Positions 6,608 to 39,591 of a stretch of 41,010 nucleotides of DNA are shown piece after piece. Position 1 is the first letter of the stretch; every line of letters starts with the position of its first letter. The notes beneath the pieces were generated by a model that was given only the letters and a program-made list of their open reading frames with translations, was not told the origin of the DNA and ran no database searches. This DNA is from a virus, in the IMG/VR virus record IMGVR_UViG_3300009098_000014, positions 1 to 41,010 of that record. The stretch is one strand, 5' to 3'. The translations under genes were made by a program, and so were the position numbers.

Positions 6608-9600
6608 ATGGCCGCGCTCGACGATGAAGACATGCCGGTTTATGGCTCCGGTATTGCCGCGTCGTCGCCCTATGACACGATAGCGGTACCGCCACCGCCG
6701 CAGCAGCAATCTGCGTTGGGCGACGGTGGTGATTACGGCGGCGGTGAAGAGCAGCAAGCGCCGATCTCGTCTCAGGTTCTCCAATTACTGGCCAAGCGCG
6801 GCTTAAGGACGCCAGCCCCCGAAGGCAGCGCCCGCGAGATGCTGCAGAAAGTCGCGAGAGAGCAACTCGTGAATTACCAGCAGCAGCAAGCGCAGCCTAC
6901 CAAGCAAACTTATGGCGGGTTCGACGCGCAGGCATCGCAAGGCCAGTTTGATCCGAACACTGAACTGGTTCCGGATTTGCCGCCGCCTGAGAAAAAGAAG
7001 GAAGAAGAGGGATACGGTCAGGCACTGGTGCGCGGTTTCCTGCGGGCTGGCGAAAACGCCAAGGCGACCGCCGATGTCCTCAAGGGCCAGAAGCCCAAGA
7101 CCAGTAAGGTAGAAGAGGCCGAGTTCGAGAAGCCGTTCGAACTAAAGGACGTGAAAGACCCAGCCCTGCTCACTAAAAAAATGATATTTGGCTTGTCCAA
7201 GAGCGCGCCGGAACTGGCGGGGATGATCCTTGGCGGCACTGTCGGCACAGCGGTTGGTGGGCCTGTCGGCGGTGTCGTTGGTGCGGCTACAGGTACTGGC
7301 GGCGTCGCTGCAATCCAAGCCATTGGCACAGCCTACGCCTACGAGCTTGAGAAGATAAAAGATAACCCGACGCCGGAAGCTATCGACAAAGCCTGGAGCA
7401 CTGCGCAGATCGAAGCCGCTAAAGCCTCTGGGGTATCAGCAGCATCCATAGCATTTTTCATCGTGGGTAAGCCGCTTGGATCAGTGCTCAAGAACATGAT
7501 GACCAAGTCGGTGGTTGACGCCGCCGGCCAGACGGTTGCGAAGACCGCCGGGGTGCCGTTGCAGGTAGGCGTACAGGCTGTTGGACAACCGGCAATCTCA
7601 GTAGCGGGTCAGGTCGCCGGTAATGTCGCCGAGGGTAAGCCTATCGGTGAGGGTGTGCCGGAAGCTGCGGTAAGTGCTATCCCCAATATCGCGTTTGACG
7701 CATTTGGCCGGGCGATCCATCGAGGTCTCAGTGGTCGTCAGCCCACCCCCGAGGCTACTCCCGGAGTCACGCAAGAACAGCAGCTAGCGTTAGGTCAGCA
7801 AGGCGAGTTGCCGCTACCTCCTGGTACTGGTACGCGACCGCCGCCAATCGATCCTAGTGGGCAGATGAATCTTCCCTTGGTGGGTGGTGCCGGCGAACGG
7901 CCGCCGGTACAAGGCGAGCAGATGCGTCTGCCGGACATCACCGGCCCAGGTCGTCAACCGCTGGGCGACCAAACCTATACACCCCCGACGGCGCCTCCGG
8001 TCCAGCCGGAACTACCAGGGTTCGAGCCGCCGACTCCCGGCGCGCCGGTGCGCGGTCCGCAAACAGAATTACCGCTGCAAGGCGGGGCTGAAACCCCGGC
8101 CCGGATGATTGGCGGTCAACGCATACCGGAGGGCGCGCCCTTCGTAGACGACGGGGCTACCTCGATAGGCGCAGCCGCCCGCCCCATCGGGCGAGTGGGG
8201 CCAGAGCCGGCAGAGGTTACTCCCGAAGTAACCGACCTCGCCCTGCAGCCGGATTTATTCAGAACTCCGACAGGTGAGGTACGCGGCCCGCAGATGGGCC
8301 TGCCGGGTACGGAAGACGTCAGCGTCGGCGGTACGCGGGTCCCGATGAACGCGCCGGTGCTCGAAACCGCGCGGCGTGCCGAACGAGACACCGGGGCCAG
8401 AAGCCCCATCGGCCGATTGGTAGAACCCGAGACGCAGCAAGACCGTCGACCAACCCAGGAAGAAGGCCAGCAAGACCTCCTCGGGCTGAAGACCGCCGAG
8501 GGGTGGACGTTCGAGCGCGACCACACTGGCCCCGGCTACGTCGTGAAGAACGCCGACGGTAACGTGATTTCCGTTGGCGATTCACAAGAGCAGGCTTTGA
8601 GATTTGCGCGCGAGCGCCATCCCGATCAGGTCGCGGCGACAGCCGCGCCGCGCATGACGGAAGAGCCGGCGGCGCAGCCGGCGGGGCGGCAGATCAACCA
8701 GGGTACTGGGCCTACGTTGCGCGAAGCCGAGGCGGCTGTAACAAGACGAGGCGGGGTTACCGAAGAGGTACCGGCAGAAGAGGCGAAACCAGCCGTAACG
8801 GGAACAAAAGAGCAACTTGTTTCAGCGGAGGAAAAGGCGCCGCCGGCCGAAGCCGCGAAGGTTGAGCCGGCGGCGAGTGGTCGGGATGCGGTGCCTGAGA
8901 CACCGAAAGCAGAAACACCTACTGCTCCGGTTAAGTTAAACCGCGAGCAGATTATCCAGAGACTGACTGAGCTTGGTGCCTCCAAGGCCGAGATCAGCTC
9001 GGCCCGCCGTAAGAACATCGTCAACGCGCGCAACGATTTGGCTGGCAAGGAAGCTAGTGTAGCTAAGACAGCCGAGGTTAAGGCGAAGGCCCTAAAGGCG
9101 GGCGAGGCCGCCGAACAGATCATCGCGGATCGCAAGGCCGAGGCTGAGGCTCGGGTGAAGCGCGTCACTGATAAAGCCAAGCAACGCGCGGAGGCGCGTG
9201 TAACAAAGCCGGCCGAGGAGTTGCGCACAGAAACTGAGACTGAAACTGAAGGCGCAACTACGCGCACCAAGGCCGGCGCATTCACGATGGGCGAAGGCGA
9301 AGAAATGCCGGCACGTGCTGCTCCGGCGCAGCCTAGTAAGCAGCCTAGCAAGATGCAGACAGGGGCGCGGAAGGAGAGCCGCGATCACACGAAATTAACC
9401 CCGACCTCCGGCCAGATAGCGCGGGTGTCGCAGCACATAGAACTGACAAGAAATCCGCTCGCGGTCACGCCGGGGCTGGAATCCACCCGTCGGGCGCAAT
9501 CTATTGTGCAGCACATTCTCGAACGGGGGATGGACCTTGCCAGGGCCATCAAGGAATTCGGCGAGCGTAAGCCTGGTACCCCCGGACCCAAGCCGAACGT

Positions 9601-12600
9601 CGAGAAACTGTCGCAGTACATTCGCCAGGAATTAGAGGCCGTCGAGACAACCGACGCCGCAGCGGACATACGCACCACGCTCAACGCGACAGCGGAGCGG
9701 CTGGCTAAGACCAGCAAAGAGTCGCGCACCACCACTCCCGAACTGCAAGCAGCCAGTGCAGCAGCGAGCGCACGCATCGAAAGGATTCTCGACAGCCTTA
9801 CCAAACAGCTTGAGCATTATCAGCGTGTCAGCAATGAGCGGGCGCGGCTGACTGAGATACTGCCGCAGATAGAAGCACTAGAGCGCGGCGAAAAGATTAA
9901 AGGTGTTGAGTCCTACGCTACCCCCCGCAGTGCTCGCACCGCAGAAGCTATGTCTAAACTGGGCGCAGTCAATGAGCCTATTCTGCAGCACGTTGAGCGA
10001 GCCGGTGAGGCTGGAGCAAGCCTGCATAAAATCTTGGACGATTTTATCGCTAACTCGATAGCCGCTCACGCGACACCACAAATGACTGAGCTGGCCCAAA
10101 TCCTTCGGCGGGTCATACCGGAGACTAAGGTGCGTCAAGGTGAAGGACGCATAGATAATAGGGCGGTAGGGCTGTACGACCCGGTCGCTCGTGAAATTTA
10201 TGTGGATACCAAGGCAGCACGGGCAGACGGTAGTGGGGCGGTGACGCTACTGCATGAAACCGTGCATCGGGGCACGCTGGACTATATTACGCATTTGTAT
10301 GAGACACCCGAGGTGCTTCTCACTCCTCGTGAATTTGCTCATAAGACCGCACTAGAATCAATCCGTTCTGAAGTGTCTCGGGTTTTAGACGAGGGTAATC
10401 TTAGCCGGTCGTTTGCCGAAGCTGAGGGTCTGGAGTACGCGCTGCGGGAGTACGACGCCGACAATGTGAGGGGTCCGCACGAACTGGCGACGCAACTCCT
10501 AACCCAGCCGGAAGTTTACAACATCCTATCGCGTGAGACCGCTAGCCACCGTTTCCGACAGGCACTCGACAATGTCGGTATGGGGATATCGTCGAAGGCA
10601 TCGATTTGGGACGGCTTCAAACGGATCGTCCGCAGTATTTTTGGGGTGCCTGAGCGCCTCGACTCGGTGCTCGACTACGCGATGCGGCCATTGACCGAGG
10701 TTCTTGAGACCGGCGCTAAGTTCCGCCCTGAGCATCTCACTGAAGCCCGGACCATCGCCCGCAATAACTTTGACGTGATTGGTCCGGAGTCGCAACGGAC
10801 CGCCGCCAGTATGAAGCGTATCAAGGACGCCGCTAAGAATTTCGCCGACCCCAAAGGACGGTTGCTCCTGCGTGGTGCGTTCCAGGGGGGCAACCTCCAG
10901 GCGATCCACGATATGCTTAAGCCGTACATCCCGTCGGTGACGGCGCACCGCGATGCGATAGACCGCGTCAAGAATGCGTCCGACGCGGAGGCGGTACGGC
11001 AGATCACCACCTACGACAATAACGGACAGCCGATCACCGAGTCGGCTATGGACAAAACAAACCGGCTCTCTAACCAGCTACGCGAGTCGCCGGATGTCCG
11101 TGAGATATCCAACCTGATGAGTGAGGTGCAGTACGCCGGCATGTCGGTGATCGACCCTGCCCGCAACGCGCACTTGACCACTCCCGAACAACTTCGGGAG
11201 CAGGCCGCCTTGCAACGCCGCTTCGACGATCTGCCCCAAGCGGCGCAGCAAATCTACCGTGAGCACAACGCACTGCGCGATGAGTGGCACCGAGCCGACC
11301 GGGAAGCCAAGATCGAGGAGTTTGTCGAGACGACCTTCGAGGAGTCAACTCCGGCCGAGCGCCTTGCCATCAAAAACCAGATGCGCACCCGCCAGGGTAT
11401 CCTGGACGTGATCGACCGGGCGGAGGCGACGCCTATCGGTCCGTTACTAGGGAACAAGGCAGCCTTGGCAAAGGTCTTTGCCGAGAGCCAGCGCCTCGGG
11501 TTTGTCGACGGCGACTATTTCGGATTACGGCGCAACGGCGAGTACATTGTCAGCTATGGCGACCCAAAGGTGCCGTCGAGTTATGGCGTTGAGCACTTCG
11601 AGACGGTCACCGCAGCCCAAACCCGCAAGGATGAATTGCACCGGGGTAACGTGGAGAAGGGCATACCGAAACGTACCGACGTGTCCCAGGTCTTTACTAA
11701 ATCCCAGATGCAATCGAATAAGCTGTTCCAGAACCCGGCGCAGGCGCTTGGTACGCTCGACCGGGCATTGGAGACCGGCGGCATTACCGGCGACCGTGCT
11801 GAGATAATCAAGGACCTCTACGCTACCCAGCTAATCCAGCAGGGTATCCGCGCTGCCACCCATACAATGCGGCGCGAGGGTATCCGGGGTGCCACCGAGG
11901 ACTACGCCCGCACATTGATGGGCGACTACCTCGCCCACAATGCCCGCATGGGGCATCTGAAGCACGGCGTCGAGGTCAACCGCACCCTGTTCCAGGCCGA
12001 GCACGAGAACCAACAGTTCCGCCACTCCGGTGCGAGCGAGCTAGAGGTTGCCCTTGCCGAGACCGGGGTGCGGGAACTGCGCAAGCGCCAGATACCGGCG
12101 GATGGCGACACATCAGCCGATATGATTGGCAACGGGTCGCGTGCACTGACCAGTTGGACCGTCGCAAGCTCGCTGATACGCCCGGCGCATTTCTTTATGA
12201 ACACGGCCGGCGCGCACTCGGCGGCTTCCGGGTTGATGGCTGGCCGCCATGGAGTGGTTGCGTCTAACTACGCGGTCGCCAAGGCGATGGCCCAGATGAC
12301 CGGCACCACGCTAGGGGTCTTTCGTCGCGATGCCTGGGCCGCCATCAAGAACGAAATGGGCGCGGTCAACTGGGACACGCTGAAGTTTTACCGGGAGCGG
12401 ATGCGCAATGCCGGGGATATCTCGCCGGAAAACGCTGACCTCGTCGCCGATATGCTGGACCGTACCAACATGGTCAACCAGTCGCGCACCCGCGAGATGC
12501 GCCGCATGGCCGGGCCGCAGGGGTATATGGCCGGACACAGCTACATCGCTCGGGCGATGGATGTCTTCAGTGCCGGTGAGCATGCCGCCGATAGCAGTAT

Positions 12601-13753
12601 GAGATTTGCCATCGCCAAGGCGGCTTTTGTGACCGAGTTCAACAAGAATGGCCATAACGCTGCAGAGGCGCTCAAATATTCCGAGCAGATCGCCCGCGAC
12701 TCGATGCCGGACTACAACCAGAAATCCAGGCTGGCGACGCCGCAGGGTACTCTGGGTAAGCTCGCTCCAGTGACGACCCAGTTCCGCCAGTTCGGCTTGC
12801 ACATGCTGGGCGTGCAGGCAAACCTGATCGCTAAGAGCCTGCGCGATGCGAACCCGGAGATACGTTCGCAAGCCCGTAAATCCCTAGCCCTTCTGCACAT
12901 GCAGCACATGTTGTGGACCGGCGTCGGCGGCGCGGTGTTCGGCTCGTTGCCGATGATGGCTGGGTTGGGACTGTGGGATTTCCTCCACGGTGAGGACCCA
13001 CACACCAACCGGGAGTGGGAAGTCCAGTCACGCAACATAGCGAAAGACATCGCTGGTAAGGGTGTCGCCGACGTAATCGCCTATGGGCTGCCAATGGCGG
13101 CCGGGATCGACACGCACCGGTCTTTGCAGTTTACCAACCTCCTCGGCGTGCCGGAATGGCGGACCCACGACAAGGAAGGCACGCTGTCTTTCGCCATCCA
13201 GATGCTAGGACCGTCGGCCGATAATGCCGCCGGGATGGCCGCGTCGGTATTTAACATGATGAAGGGCGACTTCCGCCCCGAGACCGTCGCCAAGCTGATG
13301 CCGCGCATCGTCAGGGACCCCATCGAGGCGTACCAATGGGGGACCGAGGGGTTGAAGACAGCTAAGGGCGACCTGACTATCGCCCGGCCGGAGCAGTTCT
13401 CGACGGCGGAGTTGATCGCCAAGGCGGCAGGCTTTATCCCCAAAACCGCGAGTGATGCACGTAATGTTCGCGCCACGATAGACGTGGTTAACAAGGTTTC
13501 GGACGCTGCCAAGCGCGCGATCCTCGACGAGTTCATCCGAACCCCTGCCGCTGACCGCAAGTCAGTGATGGATAAAATCTACCGCTACAACTCTATCGCC
13601 GAACCGGCTGAACGAATCACTGGACAGGCGATCCAGGCCCGGATACGAGAGCAGGCGATTATCAACGCGCAACCAAATCTTGCGGGTATGCGCGGCGTGT
13701 CGCGGCGCGAAGTACCGCTAATGGAGAACTGGACTAGGTTCGCTCGACAATAA
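6608..13753 (+). CDS. Giant 2381-residue internal virion/polyvalent-type protein with HETVH metallopeptidase motif
   Basis: The largest gene of the window. Glycine-rich hydrophobic segments occur at about 197-240 and 277-300, compatible with membrane insertion during ejection. Residues 380-760 are Pro/Gln/Glu-rich linker. A Lys/Ala/Glu-rich coiled-coil-like section covers about 770-930. H1216-E-T-V-H1220 is a zinc metallopeptidase HExxH motif, preceded by a strand-rich stretch (AVGLYDPVAREIYVDTKAA) and followed by GPHELATQLLTQPEVY, as in metallopeptidase domains of phage and plasmid polyvalent proteins. The C-terminal 900 residues resemble large polyvalent-protein-associated regions, with a hydrophobic patch near 2098-2128. 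It begins two bases after the preceding stop. Role as an ejected core protein is inferred from size, neighbours and domains. Confidence 0.75.
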   Translation: MAALDDEDMPVYGSGIAASSPYDTIAVPPPPQQQSALGDGGDYGGGEEQQAPISSQVLQLLAKRGLRTPAPEGSAREMLQKVAREQLVNYQQQQAQPTKQTYGGFDAQASQGQFDPNTELVPDLPPPEKKKEEEGYGQALVRGFLRAGENAKATADVLKGQKPKTSKVEEAEFEKPFELKDVKDPALLTKKMIFGLSKSAPELAGMILGGTVGTAVGGPVGGVVGAATGTGGVAAIQAIGTAYAYELEKIKDNPTPEAIDKAWSTAQIEAAKASGVSAASIAFFIVGKPLGSVLKNMMTKSVVDAAGQTVAKTAGVPLQVGVQAVGQPAISVAGQVAGNVAEGKPIGEGVPEAAVSAIPNIAFDAFGRAIHRGLSGRQPTPEATPGVTQEQQLALGQQGELPLPPGTGTRPPPIDPSGQMNLPLVGGAGERPPVQGEQMRLPDITGPGRQPLGDQTYTPPTAPPVQPELPGFEPPTPGAPVRGPQTELPLQGGAETPARMIGGQRIPEGAPFVDDGATSIGAAARPIGRVGPEPAEVTPEVTDLALQPDLFRTPTGEVRGPQMGLPGTEDVSVGGTRVPMNAPVLETARRAERDTGARSPIGRLVEPETQQDRRPTQEEGQQDLLGLKTAEGWTFERDHTGPGYVVKNADGNVISVGDSQEQALRFARERHPDQVAATAAPRMTEEPAAQPAGRQINQGTGPTLREAEAAVTRRGGVTEEVPAEEAKPAVTGTKEQLVSAEEKAPPAEAAKVEPAASGRDAVPETPKAETPTAPVKLNREQIIQRLTELGASKAEISSARRKNIVNARNDLAGKEASVAKTAEVKAKALKAGEAAEQIIADRKAEAEARVKRVTDKAKQRAEARVTKPAEELRTETETETEGATTRTKAGAFTMGEGEEMPARAAPAQPSKQPSKMQTGARKESRDHTKLTPTSGQIARVSQHIELTRNPLAVTPGLESTRRAQSIVQHILERGMDLARAIKEFGERKPGTPGPKPNVEKLSQYIRQELEAVETTDAAADIRTTLNATAERLAKTSKESRTTTPELQAASAAASARIERILDSLTKQLEHYQRVSNERARLTEILPQIEALERGEKIKGVESYATPRSARTAEAMSKLGAVNEPILQHVERAGEAGASLHKILDDFIANSIAAHATPQMTELAQILRRVIPETKVRQGEGRIDNRAVGLYDPVAREIYVDTKAARADGSGAVTLLHETVHRGTLDYITHLYETPEVLLTPREFAHKTALESIRSEVSRVLDEGNLSRSFAEAEGLEYALREYDADNVRGPHELATQLLTQPEVYNILSRETASHRFRQALDNVGMGISSKASIWDGFKRIVRSIFGVPERLDSVLDYAMRPLTEVLETGAKFRPEHLTEARTIARNNFDVIGPESQRTAASMKRIKDAAKNFADPKGRLLLRGAFQGGNLQAIHDMLKPYIPSVTAHRDAIDRVKNASDAEAVRQITTYDNNGQPITESAMDKTNRLSNQLRESPDVREISNLMSEVQYAGMSVIDPARNAHLTTPEQLREQAALQRRFDDLPQAAQQIYREHNALRDEWHRADREAKIEEFVETTFEESTPAERLAIKNQMRTRQGILDVIDRAEATPIGPLLGNKAALAKVFAESQRLGFVDGDYFGLRRNGEYIVSYGDPKVPSSYGVEHFETVTAAQTRKDELHRGNVEKGIPKRTDVSQVFTKSQMQSNKLFQNPAQALGTLDRALETGGITGDRAEIIKDLYATQLIQQGIRAATHTMRREGIRGATEDYARTLMGDYLAHNARMGHLKHGVEVNRTLFQAEHENQQFRHSGASELEVALAETGVRELRKRQIPADGDTSADMIGNGSRALTSWTVASSLIRPAHFFMNTAGAHSAASGLMAGRHGVVASNYAVAKAMAQMTGTTLGVFRRDAWAAIKNEMGAVNWDTLKFYRERMRNAGDISPENADLVADMLDRTNMVNQSRTREMRRMAGPQGYMAGHSYIARAMDVFSAGEHAADSSMRFAIAKAAFVTEFNKNGHNAAEALKYSEQIARDSMPDYNQKSRLATPQGTLGKLAPVTTQFRQFGLHMLGVQANLIAKSLRDANPEIRSQARKSLALLHMQHMLWTGVGGAVFGSLPMMAGLGLWDFLHGEDPHTNREWEVQSRNIAKDIAGKGVADVIAYGLPMAAGIDTHRSLQFTNLLGVPEWRTHDKEGTLSFAIQMLGPSADNAAGMAASVFNMMKGDFRPETVAKLMPRIVRDPIEAYQWGTEGLKTAKGDLTIARPEQFSTAELIAKAAGFIPKTASDARNVRATIDVVNKVSDAAKRAILDEFIRTPAADRKSVMDKIYRYNSIAEPAERITGQAIQARIREQAIINAQPNLAGMRGVSRREVPLMENWTRFARQ
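7756..7767. repeat. Dispersed palindrome, degenerate copy inside the giant gene
   Basis: TACTCCCGGAGT core with the outermost arm bases changed (C before and C after). It encodes ATPGVT in a Pro/Gln-rich linker. Confidence 0.7.
8217..8231. repeat. Dispersed palindrome, one-mismatch copy inside the giant gene
   Basis: TTACTCCCGAAGTAA. It has the same internal mismatch as the copy at 39577-39591. It encodes VTPEVT in a linker. Confidence 0.8.
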
Positions 13754-25713: not shown

Positions 25714-28485
25714 TTAACAGTTATCTTCCCGTTCTGCTGCCGTCAGGTTGCGGCCCCAACCGCCCGAAGAGGCTAGCGGCAACCCTTCGGCCCAATCCGG
25801 CACATAAGCAAACTGCCGCGCCAGCTCCTGGTCTATTGCCTCTGCGTCTTTTTCCGGCACACACAAATCGAGGCTATCATGCGTAGAAAGGAAAGGCCGA
25901 TAGCCGGTTTTGGCCTGCATCCGCACCGCGATATCGGTAACAATGATCCGCGATAATGCCTGGCTGATGTTCTCGCAATTATGCACTATGAATGGCCCTT
26001 GCGTACCCGCGACGACAAAGCGGTTCCGAGGTCCGGCGTTGACAACATCGTAGACGGGTCGGCTCCGACGCTCAGGCGATACAACAGTGTCGTATGGCCG
26101 ATACCTGTGAGCCTCGACGCTTCCGCTACCGTAATCGGACCAAACCACGTTGGTATGTAGACGTTGCCCCGCCTGTTGTTTGCCTGTTTGCGATGCGTCG
26201 CCCACTCGCAATTCGCCGGTGAATATCCAGCCGCGTTGTCCTTGCGCTCCAAGGCGAGGCCGCGTCTGTACGTCGGTCCCATATCGGCCCAGAAAGTCTC
26301 GAACGATTGCCATTCGGGGCACACGGTAATCCCCCGTCCCCCGTAGTTCGCCCAGGCTTGGTGGGTTGGCAGCTTGCATCGGTCCACCATCGACCGCCAT
26401 ACCCAGTACGCTGGGTGTCTCGACATCCCATGTGTCCGATTGACCGACGCAATTATTTCGTACCGCTGACAGCCGCACGATTTCTGTTCGCCCTTGCAGT
26501 AGATCGACGAGACCATCTGCTTGACCCGGCCGCAGTCGCAGCGAACCTCCCACAGAGGCCGTAGACCAGTACCCGTCTGGAGCGACCCAACGCGCCGCGT
26601 CGCTGTCAGATAGCCAAACCGCAGCCCGGTTATATCCTTCGCAGGCCGCCCCATCCACCCACCCGATTTCGGTTAAAACCTTATGGTGAGGAGTCATTGT
26701 GATGCCATCGACCAAAGCGGTCAATTGGGTTCCATTAAAGGTGACACCATCGTGGGTAACCCACTCAATACCGTCCCATAGGCGATCAGAAACGACGACT
26801 TCGATAATCGGCTTCCACCCGTGGTCGGTAAGGACTTCAGTGTTTGCACCAAGGCAAGCTTTCGCACCATAGAGGTATCTCGGAGTAGTATAGTTCGGGT
26901 CGATGTACGTCATCTGTGCGTCTGCGGGGTCCTGGCTTAACTCAGGGTAGCATATCCGCAGATCGTTCGGCAGGACGAAACAATCGTAGTCCACGTCGAT
27001 GGGGATGTGGCTGTAATCTACCCCGTACGGCATCCGGTCATAGCGCACGCGCCGAGATAACTTAACGATTTGTTTTAGCAGGTAGTTGAAATACTGCCAC
27101 AGTGCCGGTATCTCGTGGTAAACCGCGCGGTAATTGGTCACGATCACATCGGCGGTCTCGATGTTGAGCTTGAGGCTGATCCCGCCATTGCCGATGAATA
27201 ACATCTTCTGGAACTTCTCGGCACCGCAGCCATAGCCCAGCCCAAGGATGGCGGTTTTACCAACAAACCGTTCTAACTTGTCTTCCGGCGTCACCTCGCG
27301 GTCGTATATGATCGACGCGAACTCACAGTACACGTCTCGCTGCTCAGCGAAGGCATCCAACAGGATATTGCATTTTGCCAACCACGCTGTCATGCGAGCT
27401 TCGATCTGCGAAGCGTCACGGTGGACGATGCGCCAACCGGCTGGGGCTTCTATGGCCGTTCGCAATAGGCTGCCTCTTGGCAGGTTTTGCCAGTTAGCGC
27501 CGCCGTCGCCCGATAGCCTGTGAGTGCGCGCTCCCGAATACTTCAGCGGGATCGGTGCCCAGCCCACGTCTTTGCGCCACGGCGTCTCGGCCAAACGCAG
27601 CATATTGCGCGACCGGGTTTCTTCTAACGTCGACTTCTCCGAGAGCCGCGCCGCCAGTAACAACTGCACGAAGGGTGGGAGTGTGTCGTCGGCGCAGAGT
27701 TCCTTAAAAGCCCAGTCGCCTTTAGCCAATGCCGGTATCTGATCGCCGGTCGTGGGCGAGGTTTTCATCGGCACCTCGACACCGTGCTCCTGCAGCAGTT
27801 TTGCAAACTGCGGCTGCGACGAAAACACTGATCGCGGTATCTCGCTGACACGGGCCAGCGCCTCGGCCTTATCAGCCAGAACCCGGTCATAATTCTGCTG
27901 AAGCACTGACGCGTTGAGCCGCACTTGCGGCAGGATGAACATGCGGGCGATCATGTCGATGATTGCCAGCTCACTGGCGCGAAAGCGCGGGCGCAGCTTT
28001 TGGAAGACCGCGTGACAGAGGTCGGTATCCCGCGCGCAATACTTCTCGTAGAGTTCCAGCTCCGCTGACGTGAAATCCCGCAGCCGCTTGCCTTTGGCCT
28101 TAATAACTTCGTCGCCCTTGGGCGGCAGCCCGAGATACTCCGCGACTTTGGCGAGGCTCGACCGCCCAATCGTCCAGTGCGTGGTGGCGCGGCTCATGCT
28201 CAGCGTGTCGAGGTACATCCTGGGCACATGGCCGTAATGCCAAGCTAAAATCCCGCCATCGAACCGGATGTTGTGTGCGAGTACAGCCGATGTAGACCAG
28301 TCGATCCGGCCCAATGCCGGCTTAATGTCCCGGCCGACATATACCTCCGTCGGCGTGTCACCCACTTTCACCGAGCACATGATCGCCTCGAAGCGGGCGT
28401 CCTTGATGTAGTCGACCTCGCTCATCTTTGACAAGCTATAGTCCTGGTCGTACATCGTTTCAAAATCGAGAGTAATTAGCGCCAT
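25714..28485 (-). CDS. Family A DNA polymerase with 3'-5' exonuclease domain, interrupted by an intein
   Basis: 923 residues, about 630 after removal of the intein. Exonuclease motifs: LDFETMYD (D7, E9), AHNIRFDGG, and YCARDTDLCHAVF. Polymerase motifs: TRxLSGDGGANWQNLPRG type region near 330; motif A RDASQIEAR near 355; motif B region RFVGKTAILGLGYGCG near 405-420; motif C THDSLD with H869-D870 and Ser where Glu is commoner. Intein residues 544-836 split the conserved YGAKA/CENISQALSR segment before motif C. GGGG lies upstream of the ATG. It replicates the phage genome with the primase-helicase and SNF2 helicase. The intein must splice for activity. Confidence 0.92.
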   Translation of the reverse strand: MALITLDFETMYDQDYSLSKMSEVDYIKDARFEAIMCSVKVGDTPTEVYVGRDIKPALGRIDWSTSAVLAHNIRFDGGILAWHYGHVPRMYLDTLSMSRATTHWTIGRSSLAKVAEYLGLPPKGDEVIKAKGKRLRDFTSAELELYEKYCARDTDLCHAVFQKLRPRFRASELAIIDMIARMFILPQVRLNASVLQQNYDRVLADKAEALARVSEIPRSVFSSQPQFAKLLQEHGVEVPMKTSPTTGDQIPALAKGDWAFKELCADDTLPPFVQLLLAARLSEKSTLEETRSRNMLRLAETPWRKDVGWAPIPLKYSGARTHRLSGDGGANWQNLPRGSLLRTAIEAPAGWRIVHRDASQIEARMTAWLAKCNILLDAFAEQRDVYCEFASIIYDREVTPEDKLERFVGKTAILGLGYGCGAEKFQKMLFIGNGGISLKLNIETADVIVTNYRAVYHEIPALWQYFNYLLKQIVKLSRRVRYDRMPYGVDYSHIPIDVDYDCFVLPNDLRICYPELSQDPADAQMTYIDPNYTTPRYLYGAKACLGANTEVLTDHGWKPIIEVVVSDRLWDGIEWVTHDGVTFNGTQLTALVDGITMTPHHKVLTEIGWVDGAACEGYNRAAVWLSDSDAARWVAPDGYWSTASVGGSLRLRPGQADGLVDLLQGRTEIVRLSAVRNNCVGQSDTWDVETPSVLGMAVDGGPMQAANPPSLGELRGTGDYRVPRMAIVRDFLGRYGTDVQTRPRLGAQGQRGWIFTGELRVGDASQTGKQQAGQRLHTNVVWSDYGSGSVEAHRYRPYDTVVSPERRSRPVYDVVNAGPRNRFVVAGTQGPFIVHNCENISQALSRIIVTDIAVRMQAKTGYRPFLSTHDSLDLCVPEKDAEAIDQELARQFAYVPDWAEGLPLASSGGWGRNLTAAEREDNC
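25978..26856 (-). other. Intein coding region within the DNA polymerase gene
   Basis: 293 residues in the polymerase frame. Block A is CLGANTEVLTDHGWKPI with Cys1; block B is GITMTPHHKVLT (TxxH-type); block F is RPVYDVVNAGPRNRFVV; block G ends FIVHN, followed by Cys+1 of the C-extein. All nucleophiles needed for class 1 protein splicing are present: C1, H-N, C+1. No in-frame LAGLIDADG or HNH endonuclease is visible between blocks B and F. That space is instead occupied by an HNH-type gene in another frame (25986-26654). Confidence 0.9.
25986..26654 (-). CDS. HNH-type homing endonuclease nested out of frame inside the intein
   Basis: 222 residues, shifted one base relative to the polymerase frame on the same strand. 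The N terminus KDITGLRFGYL is followed by a cysteine knuckle region (RCDCGRVKQM, SIYCKGEQKSCGCQR). The middle, HPAYWVWRSMVDRC, NYGGRGITVCPEW, FWADMG, LERKDNAAGYSPANCEWATH, RKQANNR, is the phage HNH/AP2-associated homing endonuclease family. The C terminus (VAEASRLTGIGHTTLLYRLS) is a helix-turn-helix-like DNA-binding repeat. It ends 8 bp before the intein boundary. GGGTGGGTGG precedes the ATG. It presumably cuts intein-less polA alleles. Confidence 0.85.
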   Translation of the reverse strand: MGRPAKDITGLRFGYLTATRRVGSLQTGTGLRPLWEVRCDCGRVKQMVSSIYCKGEQKSCGCQRYEIIASVNRTHGMSRHPAYWVWRSMVDRCKLPTHQAWANYGGRGITVCPEWQSFETFWADMGPTYRRGLALERKDNAAGYSPANCEWATHRKQANNRRGNVYIPTWFGPITVAEASRLTGIGHTTLLYRLSVGADPSTMLSTPDLGTALSSRVRKGHS

Positions 28486-28506: not shown

Positions 28507-28737
28507 TTATAGGGTTACTCCGGGAGTAATCGGTGCGGTTCGGCGTCTTAGTCGGCTGCACCCACACGATTTTGTGTTGCCGCTGCGCAGGTTGGTACCG
28601 ACCACACGTATCGTATTACCGCAGTCACACGCGCACTCCCACGCGAATTTTCTTCTGATGCGGCCAGCTACCTTAACTGCCACAAGGCGCCCAAACCGCT
28701 GACCGGTAATGTCTTTTATCGGTGGGCCGCCGCGCAT
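28507..28737 (-). CDS. Truncated paralogue of the intein endonuclease N-terminal zinc domain
   Basis: 76 residues. KDITGQRFGRLVAVKV, WECACDCGNTIRVVG and SGNTKSCGCSR parallel the first 65 residues of the nested HNH protein at 26654. The HNH core is missing. The last residues, APITPGVTL, come from a copy of the dispersed palindrome (28515-28529). It sits immediately upstream of polA, the usual place for a free-standing homing gene. Either a remnant or a stand-alone DNA-binding domain. Confidence 0.65.
   Translation of the reverse strand: MRGGPPIKDITGQRFGRLVAVKVAGRIRRKFAWECACDCGNTIRVVGTNLRSGNTKSCGCSRLRRRTAPITPGVTL
28515..28529. repeat. Dispersed 15-bp palindrome upstream of polA
   Basis: TTACTCC-G-GGAGTAA, perfect arms. 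It starts 30 bp before the polA start and encodes the end of the preceding gene. Confidence 0.95.
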
Positions 28738-29898: not shown

Positions 29899-31185
29899 TT
29901 ACACTTTAATTTGCACAGTCTCGCCGAACGGCCCCACCTTATCCGTCGAAGCACACCACACGACTGGATATCCAGGGTTCTGCGGGAACGGACCCCACAT
30001 GTCGGTCAAAAAGATACAGGTCTCGGGAAATACCTCGTTCTCTTCCATCCACTCAAACGGCGGCCGGAAGTCCGTGCCTCCGCGACCCGGCACCGGCTCC
30101 CGCATCAGCCCGTAGACCTCGTCCAACGTACTCACCCACTCCGTCCTCTGGACGATAGCGTCGCACCAGCCTACGAGGAGCCGCTTGGGGCGGACGTCCT
30201 GGATGATGCCGCCGACCTCGGAGAAGAACGCGTCGTACTCGCGGTCCTCGACGCTGCCACTACAGTCGATCCATACCGCGACAGTGTCCGCCCCGTGGCC
30301 ACGTTTGCCGGGCATGTAGACGATCTGTGGCATCACGATGTAGCGGCGGTTGGGAGTCGCCCAGTTTTCGTGGAACTTGCCAATCTGCCCAGTGATCAAC
30401 ATGCGGACTTTATCTTTCCAGTCGACCTGGGGTTCGAGCAACTCGTCCACCAGCCTCTGGAGGCTTCCGGGCATCTTACCCACCGCCTTAGCGGCTTGAG
30501 CCGCCCGCGCGACCGCTTCCTTAAAGGCGATCTCGCCGATCTCGTCGTCTGTCCCGGTGATGGGGTCGACCAGTGGCGGCCTCACGTCGTCAAAGCCGCC
30601 TCCATTGGCCTTCGCGGTTTTGTCGGGCTGCGAACCGCGACCGTAGGTTACTCCGGGAGTATTGCCGCCGCCGGTCTGCGGCGTCGGTGCCGGCAGGCCG
30701 GGCTGTACCTGCTTTTGTTGCCACAGTTTCTTGTAGACCTCGACGATGTTGTCGGTCCCGCTGATCCGGGGGTCATACAGCCACTCGGGATTGCACAGCC
30801 CTACCTTGAGGTTGATCAAGTCAGCGTTGATGACGTAATCCTCGGCCCGGTTCATCAGATCGTGGTCGTAGGGTGTGCCCTCGACGTGTTTGTCCCGGAT
30901 ATAAATCTTGGCGCGCTGGCAGTGCTGCCAAATGACGTGGTACATCTCGTGGGCCAACACGAAACACCGCTCCGGCGGCCGGAGGGCGGCGAACCACACG
31001 GGGTTGTAGAACAGCCGCCGGCTGTCGGTCGCCGCCGTCGGCATCGACATCGTTGGGAACTCGGTAATCTTGTCATAGTAGAAATACGCGAAGAAGGGGC
31101 ACTGGCGCATAAATGCAACTCGCGCTTCTATCATCGCTTGATCTTGTTCCGGCGTCGTCTGAACTCGTGGTGGTAGCGTGGTCAT
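29899..31185 (-). CDS. VWA/putative metallopeptidase protein (DUF2201-like)
   Basis: 428 residues. The N-terminal half carries CFVLAHEMYHVIWQH (H79-E-M-Y-H83), typical of the putative metallopeptidase domain that precedes VWA-like domains in DUF2201-type proteins. The C-terminal half has a MIDAS: WIDCSGSV (D307-x-S-x-S), RGGTDFRPPF and IFLTDMWG. A Gly/Pro linker (about 165-200) contains the palindrome-encoded NTPGVT. Such proteins pair with MoxR/CobS-like AAA+ ATPases as metal-insertion or remodelling chaperones. The matching ATPase is encoded at 35294-36499. AGGA precedes the start. Confidence 0.8.
   Translation of the reverse strand: MTTLPPRVQTTPEQDQAMIEARVAFMRQCPFFAYFYYDKITEFPTMSMPTAATDSRRLFYNPVWFAALRPPERCFVLAHEMYHVIWQHCQRAKIYIRDKHVEGTPYDHDLMNRAEDYVINADLINLKVGLCNPEWLYDPRISGTDNIVEVYKKLWQQKQVQPGLPAPTPQTGGGNTPGVTYGRGSQPDKTAKANGGGFDDVRPPLVDPITGTDDEIGEIAFKEAVARAAQAAKAVGKMPGSLQRLVDELLEPQVDWKDKVRMLITGQIGKFHENWATPNRRYIVMPQIVYMPGKRGHGADTVAVWIDCSGSVEDREYDAFFSEVGGIIQDVRPKRLLVGWCDAIVQRTEWVSTLDEVYGLMREPVPGRGGTDFRPPFEWMEENEVFPETCIFLTDMWGPFPQNPGYPVVWCASTDKVGPFGETVQIKV
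30648..30662. repeat. Dispersed palindrome inside the VWA gene
   Basis: TTACTCCGGGAGTAT, one terminal mismatch. It encodes part of NTPGVT in the interdomain linker at about residues 175-180. Confidence 0.85.
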
Positions 31186-31362: not shown

Positions 31363-32121
31363 TTACGTGAGTGGTATCACGCAGTCGTTGTGCCGGCGGC
31401 GACGCCAGCCTAAGAACCCCGCCATGCCGATAAGCCCGCTACCCAGCATCGCGAGCGTGCCCGGTTCTGGGACCGCCACGACATCGCTGATGATGTCCTG
31501 GCCCCGACTGGTGATCGTCGCGGTGGCCCCCGCCGACAACGTGCCGCCGGCGGTCATCGTCCACGAGTACGGGTCAGACGTGACCCACGCCCCGGTGAGC
31601 GGGCCGGTGGCGTACGAGTCCGTGCCGGTGCTGGTGAAGCTGGTCGATGCCAACTGAATACCCGGAGTGTCGGTAGGTGTACCAGCTCCCTGGGTGTTGG
31701 CGGTGTCGCCATACCACGCCATGTTGAGGAGCGACCCGGCGGCCGTCAGGAACGTCGCCGAGCCCGACGCGTCGAACGTGGTGGTCGGTGCGGCGAAGCC
31801 CGTACCACTGACGGCAAACAGGATCGTTGCGGTCGCACCGGTTCCGTTGGTGATCGTTTCCGAGTTGGTTAGCAACGCGTTGGTCGGAGGACCGGTCAAC
31901 TGCGTCTGCGAACTTCCCTCGAACACGACACCGCCAATCGTGGTTTGGCCCAAGGTCAACGTGCCGGTGGTGCCGTTCGTGTCGCAGGTTGACTGGTTGT
32001 CGTAGCAGGTAAAGATAGACCCACCGTTGACCTGGGCCGCGATCTGCAGGATGGCGTGCGACGGCGTTGCCGTCGCTACCAACACCACAGAACCGAGTAA
32101 CGTAGAGATCAACTTAGACAT
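31363..32121 (-). CDS. Secreted PEP-CTERM (exosortase-sorted) protein
   Basis: 252 residues from ATG 32121 (MSKLISTLLGSVVLV), with GGAG 9 nt upstream; ATG 32136 is possible. A signal peptide ends at SHA|I (about residue 23). The mature part is Thr/Ser/Gly-rich, beta-type, with one cysteine pair region (FTCYDNQSTCDTNG). The C terminus is a classic PEP-CTERM signal: VPEP at 217-220, a hydrophobic span (GTLAMLGSGLIGMAGFLGW) and RRRR. In bacteria this signal is read by exosortase EpsH/XrtA for surface export. A phage copy implies a host with that machinery. Role could be surface modification or superinfection exclusion, as inference only. Confidence 0.85.
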   Translation of the reverse strand: MSKLISTLLGSVVLVATATPSHAILQIAAQVNGGSIFTCYDNQSTCDTNGTTGTLTLGQTTIGGVVFEGSSQTQLTGPPTNALLTNSETITNGTGATATILFAVSGTGFAAPTTTFDASGSATFLTAAGSLLNMAWYGDTANTQGAGTPTDTPGIQLASTSFTSTGTDSYATGPLTGAWVTSDPYSWTMTAGGTLSAGATATITSRGQDIISDVVAVPEPGTLAMLGSGLIGMAGFLGWRRRRHNDCVIPLT

Positions 32122-32146
32122 GAGATATTTCTCCATATGTTTAAGA

Positions 32147-32161
32147 TTACTCCTGGAGTAA
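32147..32161. repeat. Dispersed palindrome upstream of the PEP-CTERM gene
   Basis: TTACTCC-T-GGAGTAA, perfect arms with a T centre. It lies 26 bp before ATG 32121. An 8-codon leader ORF (32173-32147, MSAALLQE) with GGGGAGGAG upstream ends exactly in this repeat. Confidence 0.9.
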
Positions 32162-32296: not shown

Positions 32297-32534
32297 ACGA
32301 TTTCGTCATCCGGGCGAGTTGGATCAGCGGGTGGGTCTCCAACTTCAGCTCGGCGGCGTTGGCACGCCGCTGCATCATCTCGATGGTCTCGACCAAGAGG
32401 CACCAGTCGCATCCCGCCTCGCGGCCGCCGGCATGGCGGTTGATCAGCCACGCCAACCGCTCATCTTTGTCTTCCGGCGGACGCTCCCGAGGGAGCGTCG
32501 GGTTGTTGACTTCCTCCAACATCTTACACGTCAT
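32295..32534 (-). CDS. Small hypothetical protein
   Basis: 79 residues. Pro/Glu-rich start (NPTLPRERPPEDKDERLAWL), one C-x2-C (GCDWC), then a helix (VETIEMMQRRANAAELKLET). It overlaps the upstream stop by 11 bp. The long ORF in another frame to 32170 is judged a shadow. Function unknown. Confidence 0.55.
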   Translation of the reverse strand: MTCKMLEEVNNPTLPRERPPEDKDERLAWLINRHAGGREAGCDWCLLVETIEMMQRRANAAELKLETHPLIQLARMTKS

Positions 32535-32826
32535 CCGATTCCACCTTTACTTCGCCGTCGAGATGCACGGTTAGGTCACTTAAGTCCAGCTGGTAAATCG
32601 ACGAGGCGATCTCGTTTACTGCCGACTTCAAGTCTTGCATCGCATCGGCGATATTCTGGATGACGTTATAGTCGCCACCCATCGGCCCTTCGATCATCAG
32701 GCGATTAGCCAGCGTGTGCACCGCATCGGCGAGCACGATCAGCCCGACGAGATTTGGGTTGGCTGCGGCGTAGCCCTCCTTAAAGAGGCTGTCGATCTCT
32801 TGGACGACAGCAGGTAAACTAGCCAT
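32524..32826 (-). CDS. Small helical hypothetical protein
   Basis: 100 residues from ATG 32826, which overlaps the DUF3150-like stop as TGATG. Mostly amphipathic helix (SLPAVVQEIDSLFKEGYAA, LVGLIVLADAVHTLANRL, QNIADAMQDLKSAVNEI), ending in an acidic strand segment. Tight coupling suggests a partner of the upstream protein. No known family recognised. Confidence 0.6.
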   Translation of the reverse strand: MASLPAVVQEIDSLFKEGYAAANPNLVGLIVLADAVHTLANRLMIEGPMGGDYNVIQNIADAMQDLKSAVNEIASSIYQLDLSDLTVHLDGEVKVESDDV

Positions 32827-33731
32827 CACAGCCCCCATTGAGTCATGCGGTCGGTGATACGACGCGCATCCTCGACGACGGATACTCGGGTAGCGGCGTT
32901 TTTGCGCAAGTCCGCCGCGTCGATGCCAGCGAGCATGTTCTTAATCTCCTGCGCGATCTCATCCACCCTTTCGTCTTTGCCCAGGTTCCACCCCGGCAAT
33001 AGCGTCACCAGTTCGCGTACCGCGTTGACGCTCGCCTCCTTAAAGCGGGTGTCCTCTTCTGCGAGCCGGCCGATCAGGTGCTCGATGCGCTCACGGGCTT
33101 CTGTCCACATCTGGCGGGTGGCGTCCGCCATCTGGTTTTCCCGGCGCTTGTTCAGATGAAATGACAAGCGTTCGATCATGCCAGCGGGTAATCCGCGAAA
33201 GCAGGTGCCGTCGGCTATCGGCTCCAGGTCTTTGTAGATGCGGAACTTAGATCGCACCTCTTCTGCGGTGGGGTAGTCACTCGCGACAAACATGCCGCCC
33301 AGGTTCGGCTGCGCGTCCCGGATCATCTGCGGGTACTTGGGCAAGAACTCTTCGAGCGCGTCGTTGGCCACCCGCTCCAATTGCCCGATCTCGGTGAGGT
33401 ATCTTCCCAACAGCGAGTGGGTGAGAAGGCGAGGCCCGGTCTTGCGGTCCGACAGGGGATCGCTGGCCCACGACAATGTCAGCTCGTAGTGACGCACCCG
33501 CACCGCAGCGAACGCCGACCGGGCAGCCTTTAAGGGCTGGTCGACACCGGCCAATGTGTTCTTCTGGAGATGGCCAACATTGCCTTTAGCATTGTGGAGG
33601 TGCTTCACGTCCTCCATGACCTTGCGGTCGGTCTTGACGCTGTCCCACACGCTGATTTTCATGTGGGCCAGCATCGCGGCTTCCTGCAAGGCTTTGCCAA
33701 GGTCGGTCTCAGTTACGTTCATCGTATCCAT
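32826..33731 (-). CDS. DUF3150-like protein, associated with the AAA+/VWA system
   Basis: 301 residues, mainly helical. ISVWDSVKTDRKVMEDVKH, a segment with TLSWASDPLSDRKTGPRLL, then ALEEFLPKYPQMIRDAQPN, GGMFVASDYPTAEEVRSKF and a C-terminal series of helices. This layout (W near a fixed site, then FL..YP and DYP..EEV..KF) resembles DUF3150, a family of unknown function often encoded with CobS-like AAA+ and CobT/VWA genes. The name is from memory. The palindrome at 33747 lies 16 bp upstream; AGGA precedes the start. Confidence 0.6.
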   Translation of the reverse strand: MDTMNVTETDLGKALQEAAMLAHMKISVWDSVKTDRKVMEDVKHLHNAKGNVGHLQKNTLAGVDQPLKAARSAFAAVRVRHYELTLSWASDPLSDRKTGPRLLTHSLLGRYLTEIGQLERVANDALEEFLPKYPQMIRDAQPNLGGMFVASDYPTAEEVRSKFRIYKDLEPIADGTCFRGLPAGMIERLSFHLNKRRENQMADATRQMWTEARERIEHLIGRLAEEDTRFKEASVNAVRELVTLLPGWNLGKDERVDEIAQEIKNMLAGIDAADLRKNAATRVSVVEDARRITDRMTQWGL

Positions 33732-33746
33732 AATAGTTTCCTTTGT

Positions 33747-33761
33747 GGTTACTCCCGGAGT
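33747..33761. repeat. Dispersed 15-bp palindrome upstream of the DUF3150-like gene
   Basis: TTACTCC-C-GGAGTAA, perfect arms, beginning 16 bp before the start at 33731. Confidence 0.95.
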
Positions 33762-33799
33762 AAGATCGCAGCGACCCGTGAGGGTTAGCCGCCAACGGG

Positions 33800-39576: not shown

Positions 39577-39591
39577 TTACTCCCGAAGTAA
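39577..39591. repeat. Dispersed palindrome acting as ribosome site
   Basis: On the transcribed strand TTACTTCGGGAGTAA, one arm mismatch, ending 6 bp before the start at 39571. Confidence 0.85.

Follow-up and report, generated by a model that had tools for sequence, protein, structure and literature searches.

Surface sorting systems and phage surface proteins

Among phage proteins exposed on the host, the surface lipoprotein Ltp reportedly acts in superinfection exclusion. Bacteria possess a sorting system of their own, PEP-CTERM/exosortase (EpsH), whose substrates are outlined in the original description as having a signal peptide, a variable body, a PEP motif, a transmembrane helix and a C-terminal basic cluster (Haft 2006, PMC1569441). 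One such substrate, PepA of Aquincola, is involved in floc formation, and its overexpression lowers soluble and raises bound polymers (PMC9850573). In hot-spring viruses, 13 TIGR03118 proteins with a putative exosortase-interaction C-terminus are listed, in one part of a report, among gene transfers from cells (PMC11003980). No paper on phage-encoded PEP-CTERM families was found in the open PMC literature, and prior work may exist elsewhere. A review (PMC11436027) contains no passage on lipoproteins or exosortase.

A PEP-CTERM gene in a phage locus

The window, i.e., the whole stretch of DNA analysed, is a linear virus record of 41,010 bases (IMGVR_UViG_3300009098_000014). Its phage genes encode a PolA-type polymerase, a primase-helicase, a SNF2-type helicase, a DUF2201 protein, an ATPase and virion proteins. 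An ORF on the minus strand, with its ATG at 32121 and its stop codon at 31363-31365, gives a product of 252 aa. Read directly, this product begins with MSKLISTLLGSVVLVATATPSHA and continues through a Thr/Ser/Gly-rich body to VPEPGTLAMLGSGLIGMAGFLGWRRRR and a tail of nine residues. The gene and its surroundings comprise the following features:

31363..32121, minus strand: PEP-CTERM protein gene, 252 aa (ORF, PF07589, TIGR02595)
32053..32121, minus strand: predicted signal peptide, residues 1-23, ending in AHA, no lipobox cysteine (sequence; low-confidence N-terminal helix in the AlphaFold2 model)
31474..32052, minus strand: mature body, residues 24-216, predicted jelly-roll beta sandwich with a conserved cysteine pair (AlphaFold2; alignment)
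31462..31473, minus strand: VPEP motif, residues 217-220 (sequence, Pfam)
31405..31458, minus strand: hydrophobic helix near the C-terminus, residues 222-239 (sequence; the model has a helix at 220-244)
31393..31404, minus strand: RRRR basic cluster, residues 240-243 (sequence)
32131..32134, minus strand: candidate ribosome-binding site GGAG (sequence)
32147..32161, no strand assigned: one copy of palindrome TTACTCCNGGAGTAA, which recurs across the phage (13 sites in the record); candidate operator 26 bp ahead of the start codon
29899..31185, minus strand: downstream neighbour, DUF2201 metallopeptidase/VWA-like protein (PF13203 117.8 bits, PF09967 69.8 bits; phrog_1314)
32319..32534, minus strand: upstream small ORF with homologous ORFs in contigs L002 and L003 (sequence)
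32524..32838, minus strand: upstream ORF, 104 aa, no Pfam match over its cut-off (ORF list, Pfam)

The C-terminus scored above the cut-offs of both domain models, PF07589 of Pfam (29.1 bits against 20.7, E 9.5e-7, residues 216-243 of 252) and TIGR02595 of NCBIfam (26 bits against 16). The domain includes a helix followed by a basic cluster, and a signal peptide was predicted by eye and by a simple sequence rule. By the two domain scores, the PEP-CTERM assignment is above chance. All the parts named in the sequence-only reading (signal peptide, Thr/Ser-rich body, VPEP, hydrophobic span and RRRR) were confirmed by the sequence and the two domain scores, and the coordinates it gave are correct. 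GGAG lies 9 nt ahead of the ATG at 32121; translation could also begin at an in-frame ATG at 32136. PHROGs held no family for the protein (best E 0.091) or for its relatives (1 of 60 members matched, E 0.0068), and a sequence search of solved structures gave no match. A promoter, a terminator, an Rfam family and a tRNA were looked for, and none was found.

Two other viral contigs, L002 (99% identity) and L003 (92%), encode this protein at loci collinear with the window. Three related phages (L004-L006, 77% identity in the DUF2201 protein) have no PEP-CTERM gene at this site, which marks it as an accessory gene. In L004, the one of the three that was read, other small ORFs occupy the corresponding position.

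The 15-bp palindrome occurs at 13 sites in the record at up to 2 mismatches (e.g., 1720-1734, 28515-28529, 32147-32161, 33749-33763 and 39577-39591), compared with at most one in each of ten random first-order sequences. Several copies lie 6-30 bp upstream of gene starts, and the palindrome is also found in the relatives L002-L004, L006 and L007. Upstream of the PEP-CTERM gene, a copy is located at 26, 26 and 28 bp in the record, L002 and L003, respectively. The palindrome may be an operator or a translation element; as an operator, it would place the gene under phage control.

Other observations concern the rest of the record. The polymerase gene (25714-28485, minus strand) has an intein-like insert at about 25828-26893, which is absent from L004-L006 in the alignment, and a 222-aa ORF in another frame within it (25986-26654) looks like a homing endonuclease. 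The C-terminal end of the DUF2201 protein of L002 (1675-2967) is closer to that of L004 than to the product of 29899-31185, which suggests recombination within the gene. The C-terminal part of a 2381-aa protein (6608-13753) has distant relatives, at 23-25%, among the large proteins of Rhizobium, Ochrobactrum, Erwinia and Serratia phages, and several of these carry a DarB-like antirestriction annotation. The cultured relatives of three proteins of the window include Rhizobium phages, and at 23-35% identity these were too distant to assign a host.

The body family on viral records

Relatives were collected by a scan for the tail pattern and by a search with an 11-row alignment (best 80 of 147 stretches encoding a relative), and membership in the body family, here called family A, was set at 200 bits. 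Family A is uncatalogued and comprises at least 99 ORFs on at least 88 distinct viral records, including the window (eleven contigs were counted twice). The PEP motif is kept in 97 of the 99 ORFs, i.e., 86 of the 88 distinct records; the two exceptions (VGEP in L158, IQEP in L218) carry an xEP variant with the rest of the tail retained. The bodies diverge to 32-46% identity while the tag stays. A cysteine pair is found in all 60 aligned rows, with exactly two body cysteines in 57. Among nine family pairs, dN/dS (NG86) was about 0.07-0.35, with dS near or past saturation in several, and these ratios point to purifying selection. The closest outside relative among the best 80 of the 147 stretches, L149 (68% in the best segment), has its gene flanked by an integrase on one side and, on the other, by large ORFs resembling virion genes.

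A body-only profile (A5) was built without signal peptide or tail from 45 of the 60 rows of alignment A4. It matched all 48 virus records that had supplied members, which served as the positive control, and none of 899 sampled bacterial genomes (two classes and one phylum; Acidobacteriota lay outside the sample). These comprised 385 genomes from the Alphaproteobacteria, sampled through an Acidiphilium genome, 369 from the class to which an Aquabacterium genome belongs and 145 from the phylum that includes a Verrucomicrobia genome. A genome-contig search with three close sequences found no cellular full-length relative. With alignment A2, it gave 20 loci, most of them matching the C-terminus only. 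Two covered more of the protein (L131, 25%; L144, 30%) and were rejected as cellular full-length relatives because, among the matches listed, A5 hit no ORF outside family A at E <=1 in the loci collected, these two included. Family A appears viral and not cellular, as far as sampled. The proposed search for homologues in phage and host genomes has been productive on the viral side, with many records, and empty for A5 in the 899 bacterial genomes.

These results bear on whether the gene matters to the phage at all. A bacterial gene picked up by chance, or brought in by an assembly chimera or host contamination, would be of no use to the phage; outside these viruses, PEP-CTERM genes belong to bacteria, and the related phages L004-L006 have none at this site. 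Such an origin is very improbable and largely refuted, given a collinear locus common to three records with phage genes on its flanks, purifying selection, the phage palindrome upstream, and body relatives that occur on viral records and in none of the 899 genomes sampled outside the Acidobacteriota. Assembly contamination, which the sequence-only reading had named as a possible refutation, was answered against on these grounds, and its claim of a phage-encoded gene was upheld.

Gene neighbourhoods of the carriers

On 47 non-redundant loci of family A, 181 candidate flanking ORFs were found, and 109 of the first 150 were scanned, with short and antisense-looking ones excluded. The matches included endolysins, portals, terminases, helicases, primases, RecT, tail collar, capsid and prohead protease. 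Ten neighbours were scanned singly: eight could be named (three portals, a terminase, a RecE-like, a Sak4-like and a primosomal protein, and a helicase) and two had no match. There was no constant neighbour gene among the 89 loci analysed (9 of 98 were dropped because the simple gene caller lost the anchor). Since the flanks consist of diverse virion and replication genes with no constant neighbour, many kinds of tailed phage carry family A. Integrase PF00589 was detected in 4 of 48 virus records and was absent in 44, which suggests a lytic life for most carriers, although many records are fragments. The small number of integrases, read with the same caveat, limits a role in long-term surface conversion.

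Predicted fold of the body

The AlphaFold2 model of the family A body is a jelly roll (mean pLDDT 91.1). Its fold matches reach Z 8.8 overall, with a Bdellovibrio protein at rank 1, and include carbohydrate-binding modules and glycan-binding proteins. The VIA Z values of 7.9 (CBM61), 6.8 (CBM16) and 6.6 (CBM4) fall in the range that a common arrangement gives, and the modelled body is loosely like carbohydrate-binding modules. Glycan binding would rest on these weak fold matches, and a shared fold at that level shows no function.

One tail on several bodies

The tail-pattern scan covered at least 120 stretches with 125 ORFs, 112 of them complete; the contigs outside family A are putatively viral. 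A signal-like start, the C-terminal motif and a basic end occurred together in 107 of the 112 complete ORFs. A signal-like start was seen in 108 of these 112 when all starts were considered and in 275 of 1062 control ORFs when the first five starts were considered, a comparison that is not strictly matched. Grouped by body, the ORFs listed gave clusters of 41 (family B), 21 (family A), 4 and 3, along with several pairs and numerous singletons. The tail of L213 is of the PEPxxWA type, an alphaproteobacterial form, and its 34.5 bits narrowly miss the cut-off of 35.

Family B is a second, larger PEP-CTERM family (at least 41 ORFs, including L019, L034 and L101) with a body unrelated to that of family A; the two profiles align over the 28-column tail alone. 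Its model is a barrel-like all-beta domain (pLDDT 81.0), which differs from the family A jelly roll. It had no Foldseek match at E 0.001 and a best VIA Z of 8.7. Because the folds differ, glycan binding is not a shared theme. Furthermore, 8 of the 47 non-redundant loci have another PEP-CTERM ORF no more than eight genes away from that of family A, and in 7 of them (L151, L156, L157, L159, L164, L172 and L189) it is directly downstream on the same strand.

The tail could also be a plain transmembrane anchor that keeps the protein in the inner membrane facing the periplasm, e.g., to block DNA entry by a second phage, without any exosortase. Any helix followed by arginines can anchor a protein, and a host exosortase is presumed here. 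An anchor alone needs no PEP, yet the motif is kept in 86 of 88 records and recurs on unrelated bodies, which makes this explanation unlikely. A common tail on unrelated bodies and the second tagged ORF at some loci would also suit a decoy, i.e., a phage protein that ties up the host enzyme as a competing substrate; host PEP-CTERM proteins would then fail to reach the surface, and receptors or matrix would change. A decoy needs only the tail, whereas the body is under apparent purifying selection and confidently folded in the model, and we consider this explanation even less probable than the anchor.

Sorting of the phage protein as cargo remains the preferred reading. Uncultivated phages may well use exosortase sorting as a general means of remodelling the surfaces of the cells they infect, and we lean slightly towards this: at least two unrelated body families with different folds (jelly roll and beta barrel), sometimes as two tagged genes side by side, would have converged on the same host tag. 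If true, a class of phage surface-conversion proteins has been overlooked since cultured phages rarely infect exosortase-bearing hosts.

Exosortase and the proposed mechanism

Exosortase PF09721 was found in none of the 48 virus records. It was present in 11 of the 13 genomes reached via C-terminal PEP-CTERM matches and in 30 of 240 sampled Alphaproteobacteria. As the 48 virus records lack the enzyme, sorting would need that of the host, and use of the host exosortase is the simplest reading of these sequence searches. The relatives on many uncultivated viruses suggest that viruses borrow the bacterial sorting system. The interpretation given in the sequence-only reading is thereby supported in part; the roles it offered, in receptor change, exclusion or biofilm, are hypothetical. 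If tagged phages infect exosortase-bearing hosts, the tag could aid host prediction for uncultivated viruses.

The main reading, to which we give a probability of roughly 0.7, is that the phage protein is a cargo of the host exosortase and masks or remodels the surface of the infected cell. Sec would export the 252-aa protein, and the C-terminal helix and Arg cluster would park it in the inner membrane, its PEP facing outwards. Recognition of the PEP by the host exosortase would be followed by removal of the tail. Export, parking and processing are proposed here after Haft 2006 (PMC1569441). The freed body (about 194 aa, a presumably disulfide-bonded jelly roll) would reach the cell surface or the exopolysaccharide layer, where it would most likely bind a glycan or envelope component and so mask or remodel the surface. 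The effect could be superinfection exclusion with protection of progeny, or an altered EPS matrix. Sorting by exosortase is well supported, and we infer it together with the processing and the disulfide; the surface function is offered as a hypothesis. For the body, surface masking or exclusion is the preferred, tentative assignment, and a change of the EPS lies slightly behind it. If the main reading is true, many phages rewrite by their own means the surface of bacteria that form a matrix of exopolysaccharide, and the exosortase field gains compact phage-borne substrates. In viral contigs, such proteins could then be picked out by their tail motif.

Comparison with cultured phages and known systems

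The view that such a gene is unusual in phages is right for cultured ones, where a few queries against 50,697 records gave one convincing case, Tunturi_5, and wrong for uncultivated viruses, in which relatives are common. Families A and B had no match in cultured phages with the queries L078, L034 and L213. With the C-terminal piece as query, three weak matches appeared besides Tunturi_5; two of them are annotated as holins, and all three were taken as chance. Tunturi_5 is a cultured jumbo phage of Tunturiibacter psychrotolerans. Its gp179 (PP885688.1, 2503-3141; 212 aa), annotated as hypothetical, resembles the present protein in having a signal peptide and a PEP-CTERM tail (TIGR02595 19.2 bits against a cut-off of 16) in a phage genome, but its body is outside family A. 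The gene sits in a replication/recombination block (exonuclease, SbcD-like, DnaB-like). A term search of the main text of the Tunturi_5 paper found no mention of PEP-CTERM or sortase, and no relatives of gp179 were found in IMG/VR. This phage and its host are a cultured pair in which the idea can be tested.

Compared with the EpsH system, the 252-aa protein has the same architecture (PMC1569441). The differences are that it is phage-encoded, that its body family occurs in none of the 899 sampled bacterial genomes and that the 48 virus records hold no exosortase. PepA is likewise a PEP-CTERM protein and a precedent for effects on EPS (PMC9850573). Membership in the PepA family (NF033554) was rejected, with 35 bits against a cut-off of 80 and 0 of 45 bodies without tail matching at E 0.01. 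The TIGR03118 proteins are also virus-borne with an exosortase-type C-terminus, but they belong to another family and, in the part of the report concerned, appear as transferred cellular proteins with no mechanism given (PMC11003980).

Ltp-type lipoproteins share with the protein, by analogy, that a phage-encoded product would be anchored on the host surface. They differ in the means: the signal region here ends in PSHAILQ without a cysteine, so that the protein has no lipobox, and exosortase sorting is presumed instead of lipidation. The protein would then correspond, on the exosortase side, to the lipid-anchored surface proteins of other phages.
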